Part shown: positions 1 through 31,233 of the stretch, piece after piece | Layout: each line of letters opens with the position of its first letter | Numbering within the stretch: the first letter of the stretch is position 1 | Assembly (NCBI GenBank): GCA_009777535.1 | Contig: WRLP01000029.1 | Location: 1-32,175, forward strand | DNA length: 32,175 bases | Direction of reading: 5' to 3' | Source of the DNA: Treponema sp. | GTDB lineage: Bacteria > Spirochaetota > Spirochaetia > Treponematales > Breznakiellaceae | Notes under the pieces: generated by a model | What the model saw: the letters and a program-made list of their open reading frames with translations, nothing else | What the model was told of the DNA's origin: nothing | Database searches by the model: none | Translations under genes and position numbers: made by a program

Positions 1-125
1 GGCTTGCAGAACGCAGGAATAAAATGCATACTGCATATATTAACAGGCGGAATTATTGGCAGTCGATGGCTGACAATTCCGAGCCACCTTATAAGCCTGC
101 CTGAAAAACGGCAAGTCCGGCTTAG
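1..125. other. Left-edge non-coding sequence, possible remnant of an upstream gene cassette
   Basis: I see no supportable gene here. An open frame on the minus strand across 40-222 runs through the structured repeat and has no ribosome site or recognisable protein character, so I do not call it. The stretch holds TTAACAGGCGG at 40-50, which resembles the left core of the repeat at 3448 (CCTAACAGG), and an imperfect inverted repeat around 51-82 (GGAATT...AATTCC). It could be the left part of the attC-like site that ends at 296, or the tail of an earlier cassette. Confidence 0.4.
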
Positions 126-126
126 G

Positions 127-296
127 CTCTACAGTCTGTTTACGCTTCGCCGATGAAGCGGCTTGGGCTAAGAAAAACCGCAGTCGGGCTTCGCCCTTTG
201 TGCGGTTTTGTCTCCGCCACATTTGGGGCAGGGGTCATTGCTATGCAATGCCCTATTACCTGCCCCAAACGTCGTCAATCTAGAACGTTATATGCC
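127..296 (+). repeat. attC-like structured repeat, copy 1
   Basis: Highly folded sequence. It contains AAAACCGCA (174-182) pairing with TGCGGTTTT (201-209) around an inner GGGC-TTC-GCCC hairpin. A second hairpin pairs TTTGGGGCAGG (222-232) with CCTGCCCCAAA (259-269) and nests CATTGC-TAT-GCAATG. It ends in GTTATATGCC (287-296), which resembles an integron R' core. Its right 34 bases (270-303) are nearly the same as those of copy 2 (1805-1838), and its left part (135-208) matches copy 3 (3458-3525). The left boundary is uncertain, about 127 or about 38. No integrase gene is in the window, so the attC identity is inference from core-site symmetry. Confidence 0.5.
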
Positions 297-334
297 ATAA
301 AATCAGAAATATTGTTATTTTAAGGAAAAATAAC

Positions 335-363
335 TTGAAAAATGATTAAAAAAATGATATAAA
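335..363 (+). promoter_or_regulatory. Promoter of the first lipoprotein gene
   Basis: TTGAAA (335-340), a 17-base spacer and TATAAA (358-363) give a near-consensus sigma-70 promoter. The start would fall near 370, with AAAGGAG about 6 bases before the ATG at 397. It lies inside the putative cassette, so the gene need not depend on an external integron promoter. Confidence 0.55.
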
Positions 364-396
364 AAAAATAATGGTTACCAAAAAAAGGAGAAAATA

Positions 397-1701
397 ATGG
401 CAAATTTTAAATTATGGCTGGTAATGATACTGGCATTCGGATTCATTGTTAATGGTTGTGATAATGGTAGTGGAAATAATACGCATAATCATTCGTTTGG
501 AACATTATGGAAAACAGACAAAGATGAGCATTGGCATGAATGTACTTGTGGTGATAAAAACGACATTGGATCCCATACCTTAATAGACTTATTAACTACT
601 GCAGCTACCGAATCAAGTGACGGCTTCAAAATATTGGAATGTGCTGTATGTAAATATCTCGAATCCCAGACTATACCTGCAACAAATGCTAGCCACAGCC
701 ATGATTACAGCACATCATGGAAAATAAGCGTAGACAAGCATTGGCACGAATGTAGTTGTGGCGATCAAAGTGCTGTTGCTGACCATAATTTTAGTAATGA
801 TATATGTATCATTTGCGGCTATATAAAAGCATCAGGAGGTGATGTAAATGTCCCTAAAACTCTTATTTTTTACGGCATTAGCTCGAATTTAATGGGTGAA
901 CATGAAAACGATTCTAACGGATTTATATTCATATATCCTGCCGGAACACCATGGGCTACTGTAGAGACCGAAATAATAACTGTAAAGGCTGGCTCTACAT
1001 CTATAACAAATGCGGTAGCTGGTAATACTTTTAGAAAAATGGAAAGGCCTGTTCAGAATGGAATGCTTTATACAGCAACAGCTCCTTTATATACAGCGTC
1101 TAGTTTAATTTCTGGGGGACAAACGTTATGGACAGGGTCAGGATCATTTGATATTTACTCAGCCGGTTCTGATGAGGATTATAATTATATTTATCAAATG
1201 GCTGGTATATCAATTGAATTCGCAATAACAAATATTCCGGCAGCAGGTGCGTTACTAGTGCATAAAGAAGCAGTTCCCGCTATTCCTGCTATCCGTGGTA
1301 CGATTAGCCTTACCAATATACCCACCGATACCGATGTAACAGGAGTATTTGTTATCGTTGACGCTTCCACAGTCCAGGTATTCATATATCCAGATACAGA
1401 TATTTGGCATAACGGTACAAATATTGCTAATGGGGTAGATTTTCGTAAAGTGCCCCCGGACAACCTCTCCTGGAAAATTCCTCTTCAGGAACTTGTCTGG
1501 TATACAGGTAAAGAAAGAGAAGATTTTTTCCCGGCATGGTTAAGATTCACTTTGTATGTCGAATACAATAACAATCACATGGACAGTAGAAGCTATTCGG
1601 TTTGGTATCCAAGTGCTAATACGCCAAGGCATATCACCAGTCTAGAAAATGCCCAAGCGATTGATCTAGGCACGGTGGATCTTACAAAACAGTCGCCATA
1701 A
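397..1701 (+). CDS. Lipoprotein with two HWHEC/CxxC repeat modules
   Basis: 434 residues. The N-terminus is a short hydrophobic signal peptide with a lipobox ending VNGC, so Cys21 should be lipidated and the protein exported to an outer or periplasmic leaflet. Two related modules follow, at about residues 30-63 and 100-133. Each has the pattern W..(x)D.HWHEC.CG....H, and each is followed by a close cysteine pair (ECAVC at 81-85, CIIC at 137-140). This suggests two small metal-binding, zinc-ribbon-like units. The remaining 290 residues look like beta-rich extracellular sequence that I cannot assign. Start choice is supported by AAAGGAG upstream. The gene sits alone between attC-like copies 1 and 2. 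Function unknown; surface exposure and metal binding are inferences from composition. Confidence 0.75.
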   Translation: MANFKLWLVMILAFGFIVNGCDNGSGNNTHNHSFGTLWKTDKDEHWHECTCGDKNDIGSHTLIDLLTTAATESSDGFKILECAVCKYLESQTIPATNASHSHDYSTSWKISVDKHWHECSCGDQSAVADHNFSNDICIICGYIKASGGDVNVPKTLIFYGISSNLMGEHENDSNGFIFIYPAGTPWATVETEIITVKAGSTSITNAVAGNTFRKMERPVQNGMLYTATAPLYTASSLISGGQTLWTGSGSFDIYSAGSDEDYNYIYQMAGISIEFAITNIPAAGALLVHKEAVPAIPAIRGTISLTNIPTDTDVTGVFVIVDASTVQVFIYPDTDIWHNGTNIANGVDFRKVPPDNLSWKIPLQELVWYTGKEREDFFPAWLRFTLYVEYNNNHMDSRSYSVWYPSANTPRHITSLENAQAIDLGTVDLTKQSP

Positions 1702-1710
1702 ATATATGCA

Positions 1711-1740
1711 GTTTCATTATATTGTAATGAAACAGATTTT
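1711..1740 (+). terminator. Hairpin after the first lipoprotein gene
   Basis: GTTTCATTA (1711-1719), loop TATTG and TAATGAAAC (1725-1733) make a perfect 9-base stem 9 bases after the stop codon, followed by AGATTTT. The T-run is short and the stem AT-rich, so this is a weak intrinsic terminator or an mRNA-stabilising hairpin. Confidence 0.45.
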
Positions 1741-1742
1741 AC

Positions 1743-1831
1743 GGCATATAACAAACGGTTTACGCTACGCCGCCTATTCAGCCTTCAACCAGACGAAGCT
1801 GGAACGTCGCCAACCTAGAACGTTATGTGAC
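1743..1831 (+). repeat. attC-like structured repeat, copy 2
   Basis: Begins with GGCATATAAC (1743-1752) and ends with GTTATGTGAC (1822-1831), which resemble the R'' and R' cores of integron attC sites. The first 10 bases are the exact reverse complement of GTTATATGCC at 287-296. That is the relation expected between a cassette's own 3' R'' core and its 5' end after excision. Inside are GGTTTACGC near the left and GTCGCCAACC near the right, which pair imperfectly, plus a small CCAG-ACGAAG-CTGG hairpin. Length of about 89 bases is within the attC range. No integrase is visible, so this is a well-motivated inference. Confidence 0.55.
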
Positions 1832-1851
1832 ATAAAATATGAAATTATTGA

Positions 1852-2202
1852 TTAAATAGTAATTTTATTATTCTTAATTTTTTTAAGATAATCGTTTTGA
1901 ATGTTATTTAAGGCATCTCCAAATATCTGATAAATATCGGCTGTATATTTTTCTAATATATTAACAGCATTGTCAGGAATAATAGTTTCAGGTTTTAACA
2001 ATTCATAGACGTTAATATTTAAAGCATCTGCAATTTTTACTAAGGTAGTTGGAGAGAGCCATTTTTTACCATTTTCAATGTCGCTAAGGAAAGGTATGGA
2101 TATATCTACTTTTTCTGCAAAATCAGCCTGCGATAATTTACGATAACCCCTAAATCTCCTGATATTTTGGCTTAGAATGGCCCTCAAATCCTTTTCTGTC
2201 AT
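1852..2202 (-). CDS. XRE-family helix-turn-helix regulator
   Basis: 116 residues. The N-terminal two thirds is a classic Cro/C1 HTH: residues about 10-70 contain LSQADFAEKVDISIPFLSDI and the following ENGKKW...L.KIADALN. The remaining 45 residues are charged, probably helical, and may dimerise. A GTGAGG ribosome site lies 7 bases before the ATG. The gene is opposite in orientation to both flanking lipoprotein genes. It sits directly after attC-like copy 2, as minus-oriented genes sometimes do in chromosomal integron cassettes. Its target is unknown; the divergent lipoprotein gene at 2339 is the obvious candidate because the two share a 136-base intergenic region. Confidence 0.85.
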   Translation of the reverse strand: MTEKDLRAILSQNIRRFRGYRKLSQADFAEKVDISIPFLSDIENGKKWLSPTTLVKIADALNINVYELLKPETIIPDNAVNILEKYTADIYQIFGDALNNIQNDYLKKIKNNKITI

Positions 2203-2238
2203 ATATTAACCTCACAGATAATTTATTATGCTATTGGA

Positions 2239-2265
2239 TTGACAGGTGTAGAATAATCTTATAAA
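2239..2265 (+). promoter_or_regulatory. Possible promoter of the second lipoprotein gene
   Basis: TTGACA (2239-2244) and TATAAA (2260-2265) are separated by only 15 bases, short for sigma-70. Both boxes are good and lie in the divergent region between the XRE gene and the lipoprotein gene. The short spacer could mark a promoter that needs an activator. Confidence 0.35.
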
Positions 2266-2338
2266 TTAAGGACATTAGCCAATAGAAATATAAGAATTTG
2301 GCTAAAATCTTGGAATTTGCATGTTTAAGGAAAAATCA

Positions 2339-3394
2339 ATGGCAAACAAAAAAATGTTCTGGTTGGGAATACTGGCAATGGTGCTGGTATTCGGAATGAC
2401 GGCTGTTGGGTGTGATAATGGCTCAACGGATAGCAATGACAAAGGTAATTTGTTCACCCTTTCTATTGCCGTAGCGGATGGATCTCAAGCAATGGGGTCT
2501 GTAGTAATTACAAGCGGCAGCCCCACTGGAAACGCTCAAGGGACCAGTGTTACTGTTACGGCTAATCCGTCTGCAAATTACCATTTCGTAAAGTGGTCAA
2601 ATAATATAGCCGGTATGGGTTCTGTTTCAACAATCGTTTCATACACATTCAACATTAGTACAAATACAGTGCTTTTTGCCGTTTTTGCTCCTGACAATGG
2701 AACTGATGGAATTATTTCCCCAGAAGGAACGTGGGACACAGACATAGGAACAGGAATCGTTGAAGCAATTTTCTCAGGAGGTCAAACATGGACTTTTACT
2801 TTAGGTACAGATTATAGCGACAGTGGGACGTATACGCTTACAGGAAATTACGGGGAAATTTTCAGCACCACCTATGGGGAAAACATAGGAATGTTCGCCC
2901 TTACATCCGATTCAACGATGACTATGTATTTAGTTTCGCCTAATCCGGTTACTGGAACGTTTTATGGAACTAAACGGTTAGGTAACGACCCTCCCACAAC
3001 CAATGGAAAACTGACCATTACTGGTCTTAGCAATTACAATGATAATTACGCTTTTGCCCATACGACATGGGAGTTTTTTGAAAAAGGAGTTATTATGCTC
3101 TTTGGTGGAATAGCAACCAGTTCCACGACCGTAGAAGCGGTAAAAATCACAGCTGGCGAAGTGGTAATGCCAATTTACTCTACACCTGACTTTCAATCAG
3201 TAACTGAATTTAGCGGAAACATTACACTCGATATGGATATAGTAATCATGAGCAGTAATGTTATACCAGCAACATGGACTAATCACCCTGATAATTGGGT
3301 TGCCAATGATGAAGTTTCTATAACCTTTACTGACGGCATTGCAACTTTAGATGGCGGTGATCCTAACATTATTGATTGGGATGGTGACGATTAA
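2339..3394 (+). CDS. Lipoprotein with an InlB B-repeat-like domain
   Basis: About 351 residues from the ATG at 2339. I prefer this start over the in-frame ATG at 2321, because AAGGA lies about 7 bases before 2339 and the MANKKMFWLG leader is a normal lipoprotein signal with lipobox AVGC (Cys25). Residues about 39-115 resemble the divergent InlB B-repeat (List_Bact_rpt / Flg_new family): G.V......G...G..V.VTA.P...Y.FVKWS......S...YTF......LFAVFA. The C-terminal 230 residues are beta-rich and rich in Thr/Ser/Gly, with two WTF/ TGTFYGTK-like strands typical of lipocalin-like treponemal lipoproteins, but I cannot name the fold. Probably surface or periplasmic; function unknown. Confidence 0.8.
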   Translation: MANKKMFWLGILAMVLVFGMTAVGCDNGSTDSNDKGNLFTLSIAVADGSQAMGSVVITSGSPTGNAQGTSVTVTANPSANYHFVKWSNNIAGMGSVSTIVSYTFNISTNTVLFAVFAPDNGTDGIISPEGTWDTDIGTGIVEAIFSGGQTWTFTLGTDYSDSGTYTLTGNYGEIFSTTYGENIGMFALTSDSTMTMYLVSPNPVTGTFYGTKRLGNDPPTTNGKLTITGLSNYNDNYAFAHTTWEFFEKGVIMLFGGIATSSTTVEAVKITAGEVVMPIYSTPDFQSVTEFSGNITLDMDIVIMSSNVIPATWTNHPDNWVANDEVSITFTDGIATLDGGDPNIIDWDGDD

Positions 3395-3447
3395 ATAAAG
3401 GACGCCACCATGTCCTTGGCGTGATGCTTTGTAACATATTTTACATC

Positions 3448-3541
3448 GCCTAACAGGTCTGTTTACGTATCGCCGTTGAAGCGCCTCGGATTCCGGAAAA
3501 CACCAGTCGGGTTGCGCCTTTTGTATGGTTGGTGGTTAATT
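3448..3541 (+). repeat. attC-like structured repeat, copy 3 (possibly degenerate right end)
   Basis: Starts with GCCTAAC (3448-3454), a perfect match to the RYYYAAC core of integron attC R'' sites. It shares CTGTTTACG..TCGCCG.TGAAGCG and AGTCGGG.T.CGCC with copy 1. The right end reaches GTTAATT at 3535-3541, one mismatch from GTTRRRY, and this supplies the TTA (stop codon, minus strand) of the DJ-1-family gene. It marks the right edge of the accessory lipoprotein region. Confidence 0.45.
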
Positions 3542-4132
3542 ATTCTTTTCGGGTACTACCAGAACCGAAGCGGCTGTTTTTTTTGCGGCGGCTTCGTCGA
3601 GTAAATTTGCAATAATGGCAATGGCAAACTCGCCGGCTGTTCCCGCGCCCCGGCTGGTAATAATATTGCCGTCAATCACCACACGATCAGTTGAGTGTCT
3701 GCCGTTTTTCACTTTTTCTTCCAGCCCCGGATAACAGGTAAAGTTTTTTCCAGAAAGAATGCCAAGCGGCGCAAGAACAACCGCCGGCGAAGCGCAGATG
3801 GCGCAGATAAATTTCCCCGCCGCGGCCATTTCTTTAAGAAAGGCGCCGATCTCTTCGCAGGCGGCCAGGTTTGCCGCACCTGGCATTCCGCCGGGAACTA
3901 TTGCAGCGTCCCAGCAATCGGCTTTCAGTTTGCCCTGTTTAACAAGCTCTGCCAGAGCGACATCAGTGCAGACAGTAATGCCCCGCGCGCCCTTCACGCA
4001 AACCTGGCCGCCTTCCAGGCCGGCCGCGGCGATGGTTACTTCCACGCCTGCCCTGCGAAGATAGTCAATGGGCGTAACCGCCTCCACCTCTTCAAAACCC
4101 CCGGCCAGAAAAATAATTGCTTTTTTTAACAT
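3536..4132 (-). CDS. DJ-1/PfpI family protein
   Basis: 198 residues. The family covers ThiJ/PfpI proteins, including YajL/DJ-1 glyoxalase-deglycase-like stress proteins. Seen: flavodoxin-like start KKAIIFLAGGFEEVEAV with the conserved Glu17, and the nucleophile elbow FICAICASP with Cys113, matching DJ-1 Glu18/Cys106. The C-terminal part (ITSRGAGTAGEFAIAI) is the usual DJ-1 helix-strand. The start at 4132 is preferred over an ATG at 4165 because AGAAGG lies 6 bases upstream of 4132 and the domain begins immediately. The likely role is protection against carbonyl or oxidative stress; the exact substrate cannot be read from sequence. It lies downstream of and on the same strand as the GNAT gene (23 bases apart). 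Confidence 0.9.
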   Translation of the reverse strand: MLKKAIIFLAGGFEEVEAVTPIDYLRRAGVEVTIAAAGLEGGQVCVKGARGITVCTDVALAELVKQGKLKADCWDAAIVPGGMPGAANLAACEEIGAFLKEMAAAGKFICAICASPAVVLAPLGILSGKNFTCYPGLEEKVKNGRHSTDRVVIDGNIITSRGAGTAGEFAIAIIANLLDEAAAKKTAASVLVVPEKNN

Positions 4133-4154
4133 GGTGCCTTCTTGTAACATGGGA

Positions 4155-4718
4155 CTAGTCTTCATAGATATCTTTTCTCATACTAACTGTACTGCGGTTT
4201 TTATTGTATAGTTCGGTATTTGGGATGAATCCGTTTTTTTTATAGAAAGCAAGGATACCTTGGTCATGTTCAATGTCGGCGTCAACCGTTAGAAAGCGGG
4301 CTGCGCAATGGGTTTCGTTGCATGATAAAGCCAGATGTTTTGCACTGTCAATCATGTATGTACCGATACCTTTGTATTTTTCTGAAAAATGAATGTCAAC
4401 TGCCAGTTTCGCTATTTTCATGGAGGGAATGGTACGAAAGGGGTAATTGAGGCGGTGGAGTTCTTTTTCGGTAAATGACAGTTTTATTGCGTCCATGATG
4501 AGAGACATATAGGCAGTTATTTGATATGTTATCCGCTCAGTAAGCAACCATGTCAACGCGATATGGTCGCTCATGGATCGAAAGGCATCAATAGTCAAGT
4601 AATCATTATATTCTGGTATTCCACAATCAAAAGAGCCCAAAGACGCTGAATATGTCAATACCTGAAAATAAAAATATTCTGGTGCGTTACTTGGGACTAT
4701 ATTAATCCTACGGTTCAT
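4155..4718 (-). CDS. GNAT acetyltransferase of the TacT-like toxin type
   Basis: 187 residues. The N-terminal block SFDCGIPEYNDYL (29-41) corresponds to the FDCG..LN.WL motif of the GNAT toxins that acetylate aminoacyl-tRNA (TacT/AtaT/KacT group). Residues 103-120 hold KLAVD...SEKYKGIGT, the acetyl-CoA binding loop, and FYKKNGF at 158-164 includes Tyr159, the position of the catalytic Tyr in those toxins. The start codon overlaps the stop codon of a 51-codon upstream ORF (ATGA), the layout of a toxin-antitoxin pair. In known systems the partner is a DUF1778 ribbon-helix-helix protein; here it is not obviously so. An ordinary GNAT enzyme remains possible. Confidence 0.82.
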   Translation of the reverse strand: MNRRINIVPSNAPEYFYFQVLTYSASLGSFDCGIPEYNDYLTIDAFRSMSDHIALTWLLTERITYQITAYMSLIMDAIKLSFTEKELHRLNYPFRTIPSMKIAKLAVDIHFSEKYKGIGTYMIDSAKHLALSCNETHCAARFLTVDADIEHDQGILAFYKKNGFIPNTELYNKNRSTVSMRKDIYED

Positions 4719-4870
4719 TTCCGGAACATCTTGTTAAAGTACTCGGCATTCTGTTTATGACGCTCGTACACCGATGGTGGTATGGGCTTGCGGATATGTT
4801 CAATTACTTCGCGGGCAATTTTTTTGTTTTTTATTTCCGTGGGCTGTACTGGCTTGACTTTATTTGCCAC
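4715..4870 (-). CDS. 51-residue lysine-rich protein, candidate antitoxin
   Basis: Short ORF with a GTG start, too short for routine gene calls. AGAGGT lies 6 bases before the GTG (4877-4882) and a promoter TTGCAA-17-CATACT lies just upstream. The protein starts VANKVKPVQPTEIKNKK and ends YFNKMFRK. It is strongly basic, with a predicted helix IAREVIEHI followed by RKPIPPSVYERH. Its stop overlaps the GNAT start by ATGA, giving translational coupling. By position it would be the antitoxin of the GNAT protein. It is shorter than DUF1778 antitoxins (about 90 residues), and I do not recognise a ribbon-helix-helix pattern. The coding call rests on frame, ribosome site, promoter and coupling. Confidence 0.68.
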   Translation of the reverse strand: MANKVKPVQPTEIKNKKIAREVIEHIRKPIPPSVYERHKQNAEYFNKMFRK

Positions 4871-4888
4871 TTAATTACCTCTGCTATA

Positions 4889-4917
4889 AGTATGCTGGTT
4901 TTACGAATGATTTGCAA
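4889..4917 (-). promoter_or_regulatory. Promoter of the candidate toxin-antitoxin pair
   Basis: Read on the minus strand: TTGCAA (4917-4912), 17 bases, CATACT (4894-4889). Transcription would begin near 4882, at the ribosome site AGAGGT, leaving a leader of about 12 bases. The GNAT gene has no separate promoter that I can see. Confidence 0.45.
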
Positions 4918-4940
4918 GTATATAATGATTATCCAGTTTC

Positions 4941-5155
4941 CCCCTACGCCAGCGTTTCACTACTATGGCAATTTCAGAAATGTGTGCCCCTACGCAAGCG
5001 TTCCACTGCTGCGGCAATGCCAAAATGCATAAATAAATTTAACATGGGGTGTCCGGTGAACTGCGGGCCCTCGAACGAGGGACGCGAGTTCACCGGACGG
5101 GACCCCAGGAATATTTAAATATGCATTTTGGCCGCTGCCATAGTCGTGGAAAAGC
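4941..5155 (+). repeat. Intergenic palindromic element, copy R1
   Basis: Member of a family found five times in the window. The left end is doubled: CTACGCCAGCGTTTCACTAC (4944-4963) and a variant at 4990-5010. It then runs through CCAAAATGCATAAATAAATT and AACATGGGGTGTC (5041-5053) to a stem GTCCGGTGAACT (5051-5062) / AGTTCACCGGAC (5087-5098) with an inner CCCTCG/CGAGGG hairpin. After that come GACGGGACCCCAGGAATATT and GCATTTTGGC.GCTGCCATAG, the inverted copy of the left end. The frame is asymmetric, so orientation can be assigned (+). No coding potential. The 382 bases 4871-5252 hold only this element and the promoters beside it. Confidence 0.75.
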
Positions 5156-5252
5156 CCACTTGACAAAATTCAAAACTTGCGTCAATGTACGCTGGATTAT
5201 ACAGTTAAAGTGTGCGGCAGTAAAAAACGTCACTTAAAAGGGAGATAATAAA

Positions 5253-5648
5253 ATGGCGGCAACCAGCAAAAAGAAGAAAAAGAGCGTTCCGATTGATCAG
5301 GAATTTATCGAAAATATGGAAAAATCTCTTTTAAAATTAAAATCAGAAATCGTTGAAAATTTGATAGCCAGCAGCAATGATTTTAAGGAAATTGTGGAGG
5401 GAATGGACCCCAAAGACCTTGTTGATGTCGCTTCTGACGATATCGACCGTAAAATGATAGAAGCAATCGGTTCGCAGGAGCTGAAGCGGCTCAAATTGAT
5501 AGAATCCGCCCTTACAAGGATCAAGCAGGGCAAGTACGGTCTTTGCATTAAATGCTCTGTAAAGATACCATCGGACAGGCTGCAGGCTATTCCCTACGCA
5601 TTAATGTGCATCGAATGTAAAACCGAGGAGGAAAGGCGCAATCGCTAG
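5253..5648 (+). CDS. dksA: DksA/TraR-family zinc-finger transcription regulator
   Basis: 131 residues. A lysine-rich N-terminal tail is followed by a helical hairpin (about 15-92) and a C4 zinc finger with Cys98, Cys101, Cys119 and Cys122 (C..C...IP..RL.A.P.A..C..C), the diagnostic TraR/DksA C-terminus. The hairpin contains acidic residues near its tip (EGMDPKDLVDVASDD, about 49-63), as needed for reaching into the RNA polymerase secondary channel. Expected role: rRNA/stringent-type control with ppGpp. GGGAG lies about 8 bases before the ATG. A TTGACA (5160-5165) just after element R1 may be part of its promoter, but no good -10 box is at the right distance. It meets the lipid kinase gene tail to tail, the two stop codons sharing the palindrome CTAG at 5645-5648. 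Confidence 0.88.
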   Translation: MAATSKKKKKSVPIDQEFIENMEKSLLKLKSEIVENLIASSNDFKEIVEGMDPKDLVDVASDDIDRKMIEAIGSQELKRLKLIESALTRIKQGKYGLCIKCSVKIPSDRLQAIPYALMCIECKTEEERRNR

Positions 5649-6715
5649 GATGCGCACAAAAGCGGAATTACGGGCGCTGTAAGCTCTATTGCCGCCGGGA
5701 AATCCTCAGGCTGCAGGAGCATGGTTTCGCCGTCCATCTGGACGAGAATTGGGCTGCTCCCCGAAAATTCAACCCTGTGGGCATTTAAAAACATTGCATC
5801 CTTATGGCTTGTATGCATGCCTGATACAACGAGTTTTTTTATTGCAATCTTGCCAAACAGGGATGTTTGCTTTATAGCGCAGACATTATGTTCATCGGGA
5901 AGTATCTTTTTACCGGCGCCGTATGTCCGCATGCCGGAAACTCCCATTGCCAGGAGCAGCAATTTTTCCCTGAAAGAACGGATTTCCCTGTTTTGCTGGT
6001 CAAGTAGGCGGACATCAATATAATCAACCTTGTAAACCCTGTCATAGAAAATGGCGGCAATGTCTACCCAAAGTTTGTAGGAATTTCCCGGGAATTTTCC
6101 CTTCATTATGTTGGCCATGTGGGTTACATAGGCGTCGAGCCCTACAGACAGTATGTTGAAAGCCAGGCCGCTTCCTTTTTTACAGGCCGCACCGCCGGGG
6201 GCAGTAACAAGGCGCAGTGCGGGCGCAAACTTTACATGGGCGGGGTTTATCAACAAGTCGAGGGCGCCTGCCAGATGAATGCTGTCGGCGCTGTCGTTAC
6301 CGGTTCCCATGGGAAGCCGCAATACGGCAAAATTGGAACGTATGTGGGCAGGCGCATTATACATGCCGGATAATACTTCAAGGCTTGTCCCGTCGCCGCC
6401 CGCGGTAATGATAAGGTAGAAAGGAGCGGGGTCTTTTTCAGCCTCCTTTATAAGGGACAGGGTAATTTTTTCCGCCGAGCCCTTTCCATCTGTAAGAATT
6501 AAGTCGCTTCCGCCGTAAATTTTTCGCAGCGGATTTAGGGCGGCCTTTTGTCTGTATTCATGCAGGGTTTTTAGATGCTCATTCCATCTGGAATGGATTG
6601 TAAATCCGCCAGCTTTCGGATTGGCAATTACGACCGGGCGCAGGGAACGCCCCGGCGACACAAGGGAATGGGCGCAAATTTCTGCCAGAGATTGGGAAAA
6701 GAACTCCAAATCCAT
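5645..6715 (-). CDS. Diacylglycerol-kinase-family lipid kinase
   Basis: 356 residues. The DAGK catalytic domain begins VVIANPKAGG (28-37). The nucleotide-binding GGDGT is at 106-110, and LPMGTGNDSAD at 134-144 is the second conserved block. The C-terminal beta-sandwich half (about 150-340) matches the YegS/DgkB/sphingosine kinase fold, including FNILSVGLDAYV (the conserved G.G.DA.V motif). It phosphorylates a lipid such as diacylglycerol at the membrane; the exact lipid cannot be decided. No Shine-Dalgarno is evident before the ATG. The preceding 274 bases (6716-6989) contain the operators and promoter of the divergent bdhA operon. Confidence 0.85.
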   Translation of the reverse strand: MDLEFFSQSLAEICAHSLVSPGRSLRPVVIANPKAGGFTIHSRWNEHLKTLHEYRQKAALNPLRKIYGGSDLILTDGKGSAEKITLSLIKEAEKDPAPFYLIITAGGDGTSLEVLSGMYNAPAHIRSNFAVLRLPMGTGNDSADSIHLAGALDLLINPAHVKFAPALRLVTAPGGAACKKGSGLAFNILSVGLDAYVTHMANIMKGKFPGNSYKLWVDIAAIFYDRVYKVDYIDVRLLDQQNREIRSFREKLLLLAMGVSGMRTYGAGKKILPDEHNVCAIKQTSLFGKIAIKKLVVSGMHTSHKDAMFLNAHRVEFSGSSPILVQMDGETMLLQPEDFPAAIELTAPVIPLLCAS

Positions 6716-6989: not shown

Positions 6990-7751
6990 ATGGTTAAAGG
7001 GAAAGTAGCGATCGTGACCGGTGGCGCCAGCGGAATTGGGCTGGCAATATCCCAGTCCCTGGCTAAGGACGGGGCCACAGTTGTCATGGCTGACGTCAGC
7101 GAAGCAAAGCTGAAGGAAGAAGCGGGAAAAATCAACGCTTCCTGCATCGCGGTGGATTTGAGCAAAAGAGACGGCTGTAAGGCTTTGGTGGATTTTGCCC
7201 TTCAAAAACACAACAGGGTAGATATTCTCGTGAATGTTGCGGGAATACAGACCGTATCTCCCATCGAGGATTTTCCGGAAGACAAGTGGGAGTTTATGAT
7301 CAACCTTATGCTTAATGCGCCGTTCTATTGCACCAAGTATGTGTGGAAGTCCATGAAGGCAAACGGCTGGGGCAGGGTAATCAATCTGAATTCAATACAC
7401 GGGCTTGTAGCCTCTGAATTCAAATCTGCCTATGTTTCGGCAAAACATGGTCTTTCAGGTCTTACCAAGTGCGCCGGCCTTGAGGGCGGCCCCCATGGTA
7501 TTACAGTTAATTCAATTTGTCCCGCCTATGTAAGAACGCCTTTGGTGGATAATCAGATTGAAGCCCAGGCAAAAACCCACAACATACCGGCCGAAAAGGT
7601 TATCACGGATATCATGCTGGTTAAGTCCAGTATCAAGAAGCTCCTTGAACCTTCAACGATTGCTGATATTGTTAAATTCCTCTGCTCCGATGCCGCAGCG
7701 GGAATTACAGGCGCTCTGATTCCGATAGACGGAGGTTGGACTGCCGGATAA
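6990..7751 (+). CDS. bdhA: D-3-hydroxybutyrate dehydrogenase (SDR family)
   Basis: 253 residues, full length for the family. It oxidises D-3-hydroxybutyrate to acetoacetate with NAD+ in the cytoplasm. The Rossmann motif TGGASGIG is at 10-17 and NVAG at 82-85. The catalytic set is Ser135, Tyr148 and Lys152. Gln87, His137, Lys145 and Gln189 all fall at a constant offset of 7 from the substrate-binding residues Gln94, His144, Lys152 and Gln196 known in Pseudomonas HBDH, which is what separates this enzyme from generic SDRs. GGAGG lies 5 bases before the ATG. First gene of the operon; a terminator-like hairpin (7763-7792) follows before the permease gene. Confidence 0.92.
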   Translation: MVKGKVAIVTGGASGIGLAISQSLAKDGATVVMADVSEAKLKEEAGKINASCIAVDLSKRDGCKALVDFALQKHNRVDILVNVAGIQTVSPIEDFPEDKWEFMINLMLNAPFYCTKYVWKSMKANGWGRVINLNSIHGLVASEFKSAYVSAKHGLSGLTKCAGLEGGPHGITVNSICPAYVRTPLVDNQIEAQAKTHNIPAEKVITDIMLVKSSIKKLLEPSTIADIVKFLCSDAAAGITGALIPIDGGWTAG

Positions 7752-7762
7752 TTGCATGTTTT

Positions 7763-7792
7763 GCCCTGTCGTATGACGGGGCAGTATTTTTT
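7763..7792 (+). terminator. Intra-operon terminator/attenuator after bdhA
   Basis: GCCCTGTC (7763-7770), loop GTAT, GACGGGGC (7775-7782), one G-U pair, followed by AGTATTTTTTAT. It has terminator geometry and sits between bdhA and the permease gene, whose ribosome site follows within 20 bases. Probably partial termination that lowers expression of the downstream genes relative to bdhA. Confidence 0.65.
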
Positions 7793-30655: not shown

Positions 30656-30705
30656 GGAGTTTTGCTATGCAAAACTCCAAGGTCAAAATCCTTTGGATTT
30701 TGACC
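30656..30705. repeat. Double-hairpin repeat, copy 1
   Basis: Two perfect hairpins in tandem: GGAGTTTTGC-TAT-GCAAAACTCC (30656-30678) and GGTCAAAATCC-TTT-GGATTTTGACC (30681-30705). The same pair recurs at 31184-31233 with both loops reverse-complemented. TCCGGAGC follows here, a remnant of a tRNA-Ser 3' end. Confidence 0.8.
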
Positions 30706-30718
30706 CGTATCCGGAGCC

Positions 30719-30820
30719 GGCCTGAAGCCATTACTTAAAAGTTATGACCTTTACTTGGCCTACGCCGTGTTAACAATACTCCAACAACCCGCTCACCGGT
30801 TCGCGGGCTTTTTCCTGGCG
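30719..30820 (+). repeat. About 100-base repeat X, copy 2
   Basis: Second copy of the sequence at 29254-29355. It begins right after TCCGGAGCC and is followed by GGGGGGGGATTCG, both looking like pieces of a tRNA-Ser 3' end, as if X had interrupted a tRNA copy. Confidence 0.65.
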
Positions 30821-30883
30821 GGGGGGGATTCGCCTTCCAGTCCTCAACATCCTGTTTCGGACTTCCAGGCCGGGGTTTTTTCT

Positions 30884-30942
30884 AAACCGGCATCCATGCC
30901 GGTTTGCTTGTTTGAGGCTGCGATGTCTCGCCTCAAACAAGC
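30884..30942. repeat. Tandem hairpins in the tRNA spacer
   Basis: AAACCGGCAT-CC-ATGCCGGTTT (30884-30905) is followed at once by GCTTGTTTGAGGC (30906-30918) pairing with GCCTCAAACAAGC (30930-30942). It is the third double-hairpin in the cluster, unrelated in sequence to the other two. The 415 bases 30618-31032 hold only such repeats and tRNA fragments; an open frame across them is not a credible gene. Confidence 0.65.
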
Positions 30943-30953
30943 CGCAAAAACCC

Positions 30954-30965
30954 TTCGAATCCCCC
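30954..30965 (+). repeat. Inverted copy of the tRNA-Ser(GCT) T-arm in its trailer
   Basis: TTCGAATCCCCC is the exact reverse complement of GGGGGATTCGAA in the tRNA gene at 31033-31120, 67 bases beyond its 3' end. The rest of this spacer is unlike the GGA and CGA spacers. Confidence 0.6.
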
Positions 30966-31032
30966 TATTCGTGCAATGTCAAATAACTCCCTCAATAGAA
31001 GGGGAAATCTACACGGAAAACTTATTCCGTTC

Positions 31033-31120
31033 CGGAGCAGGGGGGATTCGAACCCCCGGTACCCTTGCGGGGTACAACTCCTTAGCAGGGAGCCCGATTC
31101 GGCCGCTCTCGCACCGCTCC
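31033..31120 (-). tRNA. tRNA-Ser (anticodon GCT)
   Basis: 88 bases, minus strand. Acceptor GGAGCGG/CTGCTCC, anticodon stem GCTCC/GGAGT with loop CTGCTAA (GCT), type II variable arm TACCCCGCAAGGGTA, T-loop TTCGAAT, discriminator G, no encoded CCA. It reads AGC/AGU. Downstream spacer carries hairpins and an inverted T-arm fragment. Confidence 0.95.
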
Positions 31121-31183
31121 AAGGAAGCAGCCCGTTAAGGGCTGTGCTAAAAAAAAGAAAATCTACCCATCAGGTAAAAGCGT

Positions 31184-31233
31184 GGAGTTTTGCATAGCAA
31201 AACTCCAAGATCAAAATCCAAAGGATTTTGACC
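31184..31233. repeat. Double-hairpin repeat, copy 2
   Basis: GGAGTTTTGC-ATA-GCAAAACTCC (31184-31206) and GATCAAAATCC-AAA-GGATTTTGACC (31209-31233). Stems match copy 1 except one base; each 3-base loop is the reverse complement of its counterpart. It lies in the trailer of tRNA-Ser(TGA). Confidence 0.8.

Follow-up and report, generated by a model that had tools for sequence, protein, structure and literature searches.

A probable chromosomal integron with an I2-less integrase in a Treponema of the family Breznakiellaceae

We analysed a window of 32,175 nucleotides (nt) from Treponema sp. (GenBank assembly GCA_009777535.1), the start of contig C29 (WRLP01000029.1) in a genome of 2.77 Mb in 47 contigs that is 93% complete and belongs to the Breznakiellaceae, the home of most termite-gut spirochaetes (PMC13067680). 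The first 3.5 kb of this window hold three attC-type sites, and the region is very probably the distal end of the cassette array in a chromosomal integron, worked by a tyrosine recombinase that is encoded on contig C26 and lacks the I2 domain of canonical integron integrases (IntI). This reading is carried by the anatomy of the sites, the polarity of the array, its linkage to the recombinase, a signature in the cassette ends and a precisely bounded cassette duplication in a relative, all of which are established by sequence comparison. The comparisons covered a family set of 200 genomes and an order set of 244, and the relatives that public records name are Brucepastera parasyntrophica and bins labelled Treponema sp.

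The cassette array and its end signature

The preliminary description of this stretch proposed an integron-like array from three repeats sharing blocks with one another and from the rule that the R'' box of a cassette pairs with its own 5' end. The shared blocks are present, as two repeat pairs (134-207/3457-3530, 77%; 268-310/1803-1845, 86%) and a three-copy block (131-152/1751-1772/3454-3475). The complementarity that was taken as the strongest sign, GTTATATGCC at 287-296 against GGCATATAAC at 1743-1752, is exact and extends to 17 of 18 nt, with a lone mismatch at position 11 (A against G); it is unique in 1-4500, and 300 shuffles gave a mean of 0.0. The proposed limits of the two units (288-1822 and 1823 to about 3535) proved right, and all three sites are of attC type, although the first has lost its R'' and the third is truncated and has no R'.

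The end rule holds well beyond this window. Across 63 cassettes of the I2-less type, the first bases of a cassette agree well with its own 3' end, read as the reverse complement, as far as position 17-18, while agreement with the ends of other cassettes is at background past position 12. None of the 63 has a match at position 11; in 61 of them the start has A and the reversed end G, and this rule therefore places an A.C on the top-strand hairpin and a G.T on the bottom one. The 66 canonical cassettes compared, of the T. denticola and T. succinifaciens type, show own-end agreement no further than position 8. No bulge interrupts the pairing of the L boxes in any of 61 I2-less-type sites, whereas an extrahelical base was found in 40 of 72 canonical T. 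denticola-type sites by the same crude metric and was also seen by eye, as reported for the L'' of T. denticola-type attC (PMC3607928).

The sites carry R'', L'', L' and R' boxes with AAC/GTT triplets, as observed in alignments A1 and A3 and in matches of a covariance model. A first model with predicted structure (R1) was poor and was replaced by a model in which the R and L boxes were set by hand (R2). The check by covariance model that had been suggested recovered 127-294 at 70.5 bits, a site outside the training set, and 1742-1829 at 59.6 bits, a score that is not independent because this site (1741-1829) was in training. Site W3 stayed below the reporting of R2 at E 0.01, and an Rfam scan of window positions 1-6000 gave no attC-type family. 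The features of the region are as follows.

1-133, no strand assigned: end of a dispersed repeat resembling an insertion sequence (IS), with 99% copies at C8:115625-115757 and C15:1-106
134-294, forward: attC site W1, without R'' (alignment A1); L'' CTGTTTACG at 136-144, L' CGTCAATC at 273-280, R' G^TTATATG at 287-294
288-1822, forward: cassette 1, from the T of G^TT to the G of the next G^TT
397-1701, forward: gene of cassette 1, a lipoprotein-like protein of 434 amino acids with HWHECxCGD repeats and no Pfam match
1741-1829, forward: attC site W2, complete but short; R'' ACGGCATATAAC at 1741-1752, L'' GGTTTACG at 1757-1764, L' CGCCAACC at 1808-1815, R' G^TTATGTG at 1822-1829
1823-3535, forward: cassette 2, the last of the array; its start matches its own 3' end at 16 of 20 nt, with mismatches at positions 5, 7, 10 and 11
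1852-2202, reverse: XRE/HTH_3 regulator in cassette 2, opposing the array direction (PF01381, 52 bits)
2321-3394, forward: gene of cassette 2, a lipoprotein-like protein of 357 amino acids with an InlB-like B-repeat (Flg_new_2; PF18998, 35.7 bits)
3441 to about 3535, forward: attC site W3, truncated, without R', 77% identical to 134-207 over 74 nt; R'' TTACATCGCCTAAC at 3441-3454, L'' CTGTTTACG, right half missing
3536-4165, reverse: chromosomal flank, a DJ-1/PfpI family protein against which the array ends (PF01965, 141 bits)

The R'' arm of W1 was lost because the dispersed repeat inserted at 133/134, and in its copies in the window, C8 and C15 a different sequence follows the terminal ...GGCNCTACA. 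This repeat was otherwise found at contig edges; in the window it lies inside an attC site. Another repeat of the window, the palindromic GTTTTGCTATGCAAAACT at 30659-31201, has two exact copies and is unrelated to the array. Sites of the same type were also detected on C26, C5, C10 and C13 of this genome. The scattering of repeats that would have spoken for ordinary dispersed elements was therefore seen in part, but these sites mostly stand as cassette boundaries. The suggested search of related genomes for the same cassettes, made with the DNA of the window cassette in the 200 relatives, gave no other copy of it.

The I2-less recombinase, its linkage to the sites and cassette movement

The preliminary description advised a search for an intI gene, and an integrase-like gene with an attI-like site and the same type of attC sites was indeed found, though on a separate contig and not as a canonical IntI. 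The gene encodes a tyrosine recombinase of 389 amino acids (C26:34009-35178); downstream come an attI-like boundary and three cassettes, all co-oriented, and the contig ends inside a fourth. The integron integrase model TIGR02249 matches this protein in two pieces (4-171 and 241-314; 112 and 88 bits), missing positions 171-241 and staying under the curated cut-off of 265 bits, and a scan of the whole genome with that model gave nothing over the cut-off. In an alignment of 62 proteins, the catalytic K and the H of HxLRH are 107 residues apart in 15 of 15 canonical IntI (IntI1 among them) and 65-66 residues apart in the I2-less family enzymes (66 in the C26 enzyme; 62 in one Paenibacillus row), in which the active-site residues are invariant. 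For an AlphaFold model of the Brucepastera enzyme (mean confidence, pLDDT, 81), the best match in the PDB is 2a3v, the Vibrio integron integrase. The I2-less enzymes also share a conserved, HARP-like N-terminal domain of about 100 residues: the HARP Pfam model matches two relatives over its cut-off (29.6 and 26.5 bits) and two canonical spirochaetal IntI just under it (23.0 and 21.1 bits), with no match in the C26 recombinase itself.

The attI-like consensus, GAAATTCGnATAnGGGA^GTTA, lies mostly 40-500 nt 3' of the gene in relatives, and in this genome at C26:36317-36341, 1.1 kb 3' of the recombinase gene. Between the two, at 7214-7769 of locus L023, stand DUF3791 and DUF3990 genes, in a stretch that is often as short as about 150 nt in relatives; this segment is possibly an old cassette without its site. 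A different tyrosine recombinase was noticed on C13 (locus L022, C13:5975-6457), again with an attC-type site (92 bits) about 640 bp downstream.

Linkage is clearest where assembly is continuous. In three single-contig genomes, G144 (probably T. primitia ZAS-2), G012 and Brucepastera, the I2-less gene stands directly before an array, and in these as well as on C26 it is co-oriented with the array. Three sites lie directly downstream of the recombinase in G144, with more 20-30 kb away, and G012 has about 40 sites in 40 kb. Many other contigs end inside a co-oriented site just 3' of the recombinase, as expected because repeats break assemblies. Genome G142, presumably T. azotonutricium ZAS-9, has two broken recombinase copies (loci L059 and L060) and a few sites left, and looks like a decaying system. 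Canonical IntI was found in five family genomes and in 60 of the 244 order genomes, and none of the five had either the I2-less recombinase or these sites. A further genome of the comparison, G245, is probably T. denticola ATCC 35405.

Evidence of movement comes from G144, in which a 1,424-bp cassette occurs twice, at 2,033,382 and 2,058,258, with 99.8% identity. At the right edge the identity stops a few bases past G^TT and falls to background, and at the left edge the neighbouring attC sites are merely 78% identical. Such edges are the mark of a site-specific recombination event at the predicted base, though they do not identify the enzyme, and no canonical IntI was found over the cut-off in that genome. 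A similar pair in G012 (88% identity) is a weaker case. For one C26 cassette gene, a 77% relative was found in another genus, with no sites flanking it. The cargo in the genome under study, identified partly by eye, includes a transporter, an acetyltransferase and cysteine-metabolism genes, besides the lipoprotein-like genes and cassettes with no long open reading frame. One such cassette on C26 (L023, 9190-9428) holds four copies of a 60-nt minisatellite, and a cassette-sized unit on C5 (L024, 10459-12290), with diverged site halves, encodes a 460-amino-acid protein that by eye resembles an AtoE-type fatty acid transporter.

A scan for paired cassette ends, blind to position 11, covered the loci of homologues outside the family, the taxonomy of loci from metagenome-assembled genomes being as in the record titles. 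Among the 66 end pairs obtained, 61 are mismatched at position 11, 47 as A/G and eight as G/A; six of the latter come from two loci (L148 and L152), where the pairs point against the recombinase. In 12 loci 70-170 nt separate the end of the recombinase match from the first cassette, and these belong to Bacillota (Paenibacillus, Cohnella), Nitrospirae, Altarchaeum (an archaeal bin), Spirochaetota and Bacteroidota-related bins. In the Bacillota bin with locus L148 (611-4465) the array is directed away from the recombinase, as in typical integrons. Repeats beside the homologues of Robiginitalea (L151) and Prolixibacteraceae (L158) show no clear fit to the signature. In viral contigs, where arrays were not searched for, the recombinases were all distant, with no more than 40% identity, one short fragment excepted, and the nearest plasmid relatives are recombinases linked to IS91.

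Proposed mechanism and competing explanations

In the mechanism we propose, the C26 recombinase would insert and excise cassettes by cutting at G^TT in the R' arm of attC and in the attI-like site on C26. The bottom strand of attC would fold into a hairpin in which the L boxes pair and a spacer does not, and once the cassette is excised as a circle, the R arm would be paired over about 18 bp. Because this arm would imitate a double-stranded recombinase site, as in the recombination of CTXphi by XerCD, neither the I2 helix nor an extrahelical base would be needed. The strand would be chosen through the asymmetry of the hairpin, above all through the fixed position 11, where the bottom strand has a G.T wobble and the top strand an A.C mismatch, and the HARP-like N-terminal domain may help to fold or bind the hairpin. 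The reaction itself, with the folded bottom strand recombined by the I2-less enzyme, the choice of strand and the role of the N-terminal domain are our inferences.

Folding of the circular form with DNA parameters speaks for this reading: the bottom strand was the stabler in 59 of 59 cases (mean -51.1 versus -44.5 kcal/mol), and in 54 of 59 when the outer arm was folded by itself (14 of 66 among canonical sites, which have no such bias). Several points weigh against the reading. The folding energies count G.T as a pair, and part of the strand bias stems from the parameters. In published work, cassette capture is said to require I2 (PMC7790495), and IntI1 and VchIntIA to need extrahelical bases for attC x attC recombination (PMC2727003). 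Another route of strand choice is therefore needed, for which the long arm with its wobble is proposed. That chemistry of this kind can work is demonstrated by CTXphi, whose hairpin is free of extrahelical bases and is a substrate of XerCD, enzymes that lack I2 (PMC4792948). The window and the recombinase lie on different contigs, and the end of C26 and the start of the window do not fit together as one cassette. Finally, the association at genome level is weak. Recombinase homologues (E 1e-30) were found in 79 of the 200 family genomes, or 73 after setting aside six of only Xer level, and site-model matches in 162; both occur in 65 genomes, the recombinase only in eight, the sites only in 97 and neither in 30 (p = 0.04). 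Fragmented bins or genuine loss may account for this, and physical linkage was used instead because of this weak co-occurrence.

The shuffling of surface lipoprotein antigens, a role raised in the preliminary description, appears to us unlikely to be the main use of the array. Lipoprotein-like genes are carried by both window cassettes and by the first cassette of C26; these are nevertheless only three of about 13 cassettes in this genome, the remaining cargo is mixed, and the relatives are gut symbionts in which escape by antigen change has no obvious use.

We see a still smaller chance that the array is what remains of an ordinary Treponema integron, its canonical intI having been lost or missed by the assembly, and that the I2-less gene is an unrelated Xer-type recombinase. 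The incompleteness of the genome, the 97 family genomes with sites and no recombinase, and the occurrence of canonical IntI in the family and order would fit that account. It is countered by the family genomes with canonical IntI, which never have these sites or the I2-less gene, by the single-contig genomes that place this gene directly before the array, by canonical Treponema sites, which differ in L-box bulge and terminal pairing, and by the recent, precise cassette movement in G144, where canonical IntI is absent.

Equally improbable is that the host Xer or an IS91-like HUH transposase moved the cassettes in trans, with the I2-less recombinase merely resolving the products. The closest plasmid relatives of the recombinase do adjoin IS91 transposases, and host XerCD recombines CTXphi hairpins (PMC4792948). 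Against this, the attI-like site keeps a similar distance from the I2-less gene across phyla, and the gap of 70-170 nt to the first cassette in many loci leaves no room for a transposase there. Hairpin repeats (of the repetitive extragenic palindromic type or transposon-borne) flanking genes by chance can practically be dismissed: lone sites on C10 and C13 and the repeat inserted at window 1-133 recall such elements, yet the site ends vary by unit but match the far end of the same unit for about 18 nt, they share a single orientation, recombinase and attI are linked to them, and a duplicated unit is cut at G^TT.

The reading as a cassette array, which is supported, draws on the end rule in 63 cassettes, the integrase-like gene with attI and sites on C26, and the duplicated cassette in a relative.

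Relation to known integrons and significance

The T. denticola integron, cited in the preliminary description as a precedent, applies as a cassette array, while the integrase here is of another kind. The T. denticola and Treponemataceae systems (PMC3607928) likewise have cassettes between R''/L''/L'/R' attC sites cut at G^TT, an integrase gene directed to attI and the array, and in some spirochaetal IntI a HARP-like N-terminal region; they differ in that their IntI has I2 (107 residues from K to H), their L'' has an extrahelical base and their own-end pairing covers about 8 nt. With IntI1 and the Vibrio cholerae integrase (2A3V) the I2-less enzymes share the fold, the RKHRHY active site and the attI x attC logic, but the I2-less enzymes have an extra N-terminal domain and neither they nor their sites show the I2 helix or extrahelical bases. 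CTXphi integration (PMC4792948) resembles the present system in its I2-less recombinase and in a hairpin of single-stranded DNA that imitates the double-stranded form and has no extrahelical bases, but there a phage uses the host Xer, and here a dedicated recombinase comes with attI and a cassette array. Among plasmid proteins, the catalytic part is closest to the IS91-linked tyrosine recombinases, which share the K-to-H spacing of 66 residues; they adjoin an IS91 transposase and have no N-terminal extension, and no cassette array was seen with them. The archaeal integrons described in 2022 carry the I2 domain (PMC9668308), and Wu et al. described T. primitia and T. azotonutricium as without an integron (PMC3607928). 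The open-access literature, with subscription papers and preprints outside the search, gave no report of integrons with I2-less integrases.

In the phylogeny, IntI forms one clade (100/100), which falls inside the I2-less group when the tree is rooted on archaeal Xer. A topology that unites all I2-less enzymes is also compatible with the data by the approximately unbiased (AU) test (p = 0.11), and we therefore put forward the 'ancestral' status of the I2-less group as a hypothesis. It is about an even bet that I2-less integrons are a second, multi-phylum class and possibly the older one, in which the logic of cassette, attC and attI would have preceded the I2 helix, with the strand chosen by a long terminal stem and a fixed G.T/A.C position; IntI would then have arisen within this class by gaining I2, its sites gaining extrahelical bases.

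The I2 helix and the extrahelical bases docked to it have been described as the invention that enabled the use of folded single-stranded sites. A system that has neither, and in which cassettes nevertheless move precisely, would make the origin of integrons directly testable. Searches keyed on I2 would overlook such integrons in termite-gut spirochaetes, Bacillota, Bacteroidota and others, groups of the kind in which integrons have been called rare or absent (PMC9024848, PMC3607928).

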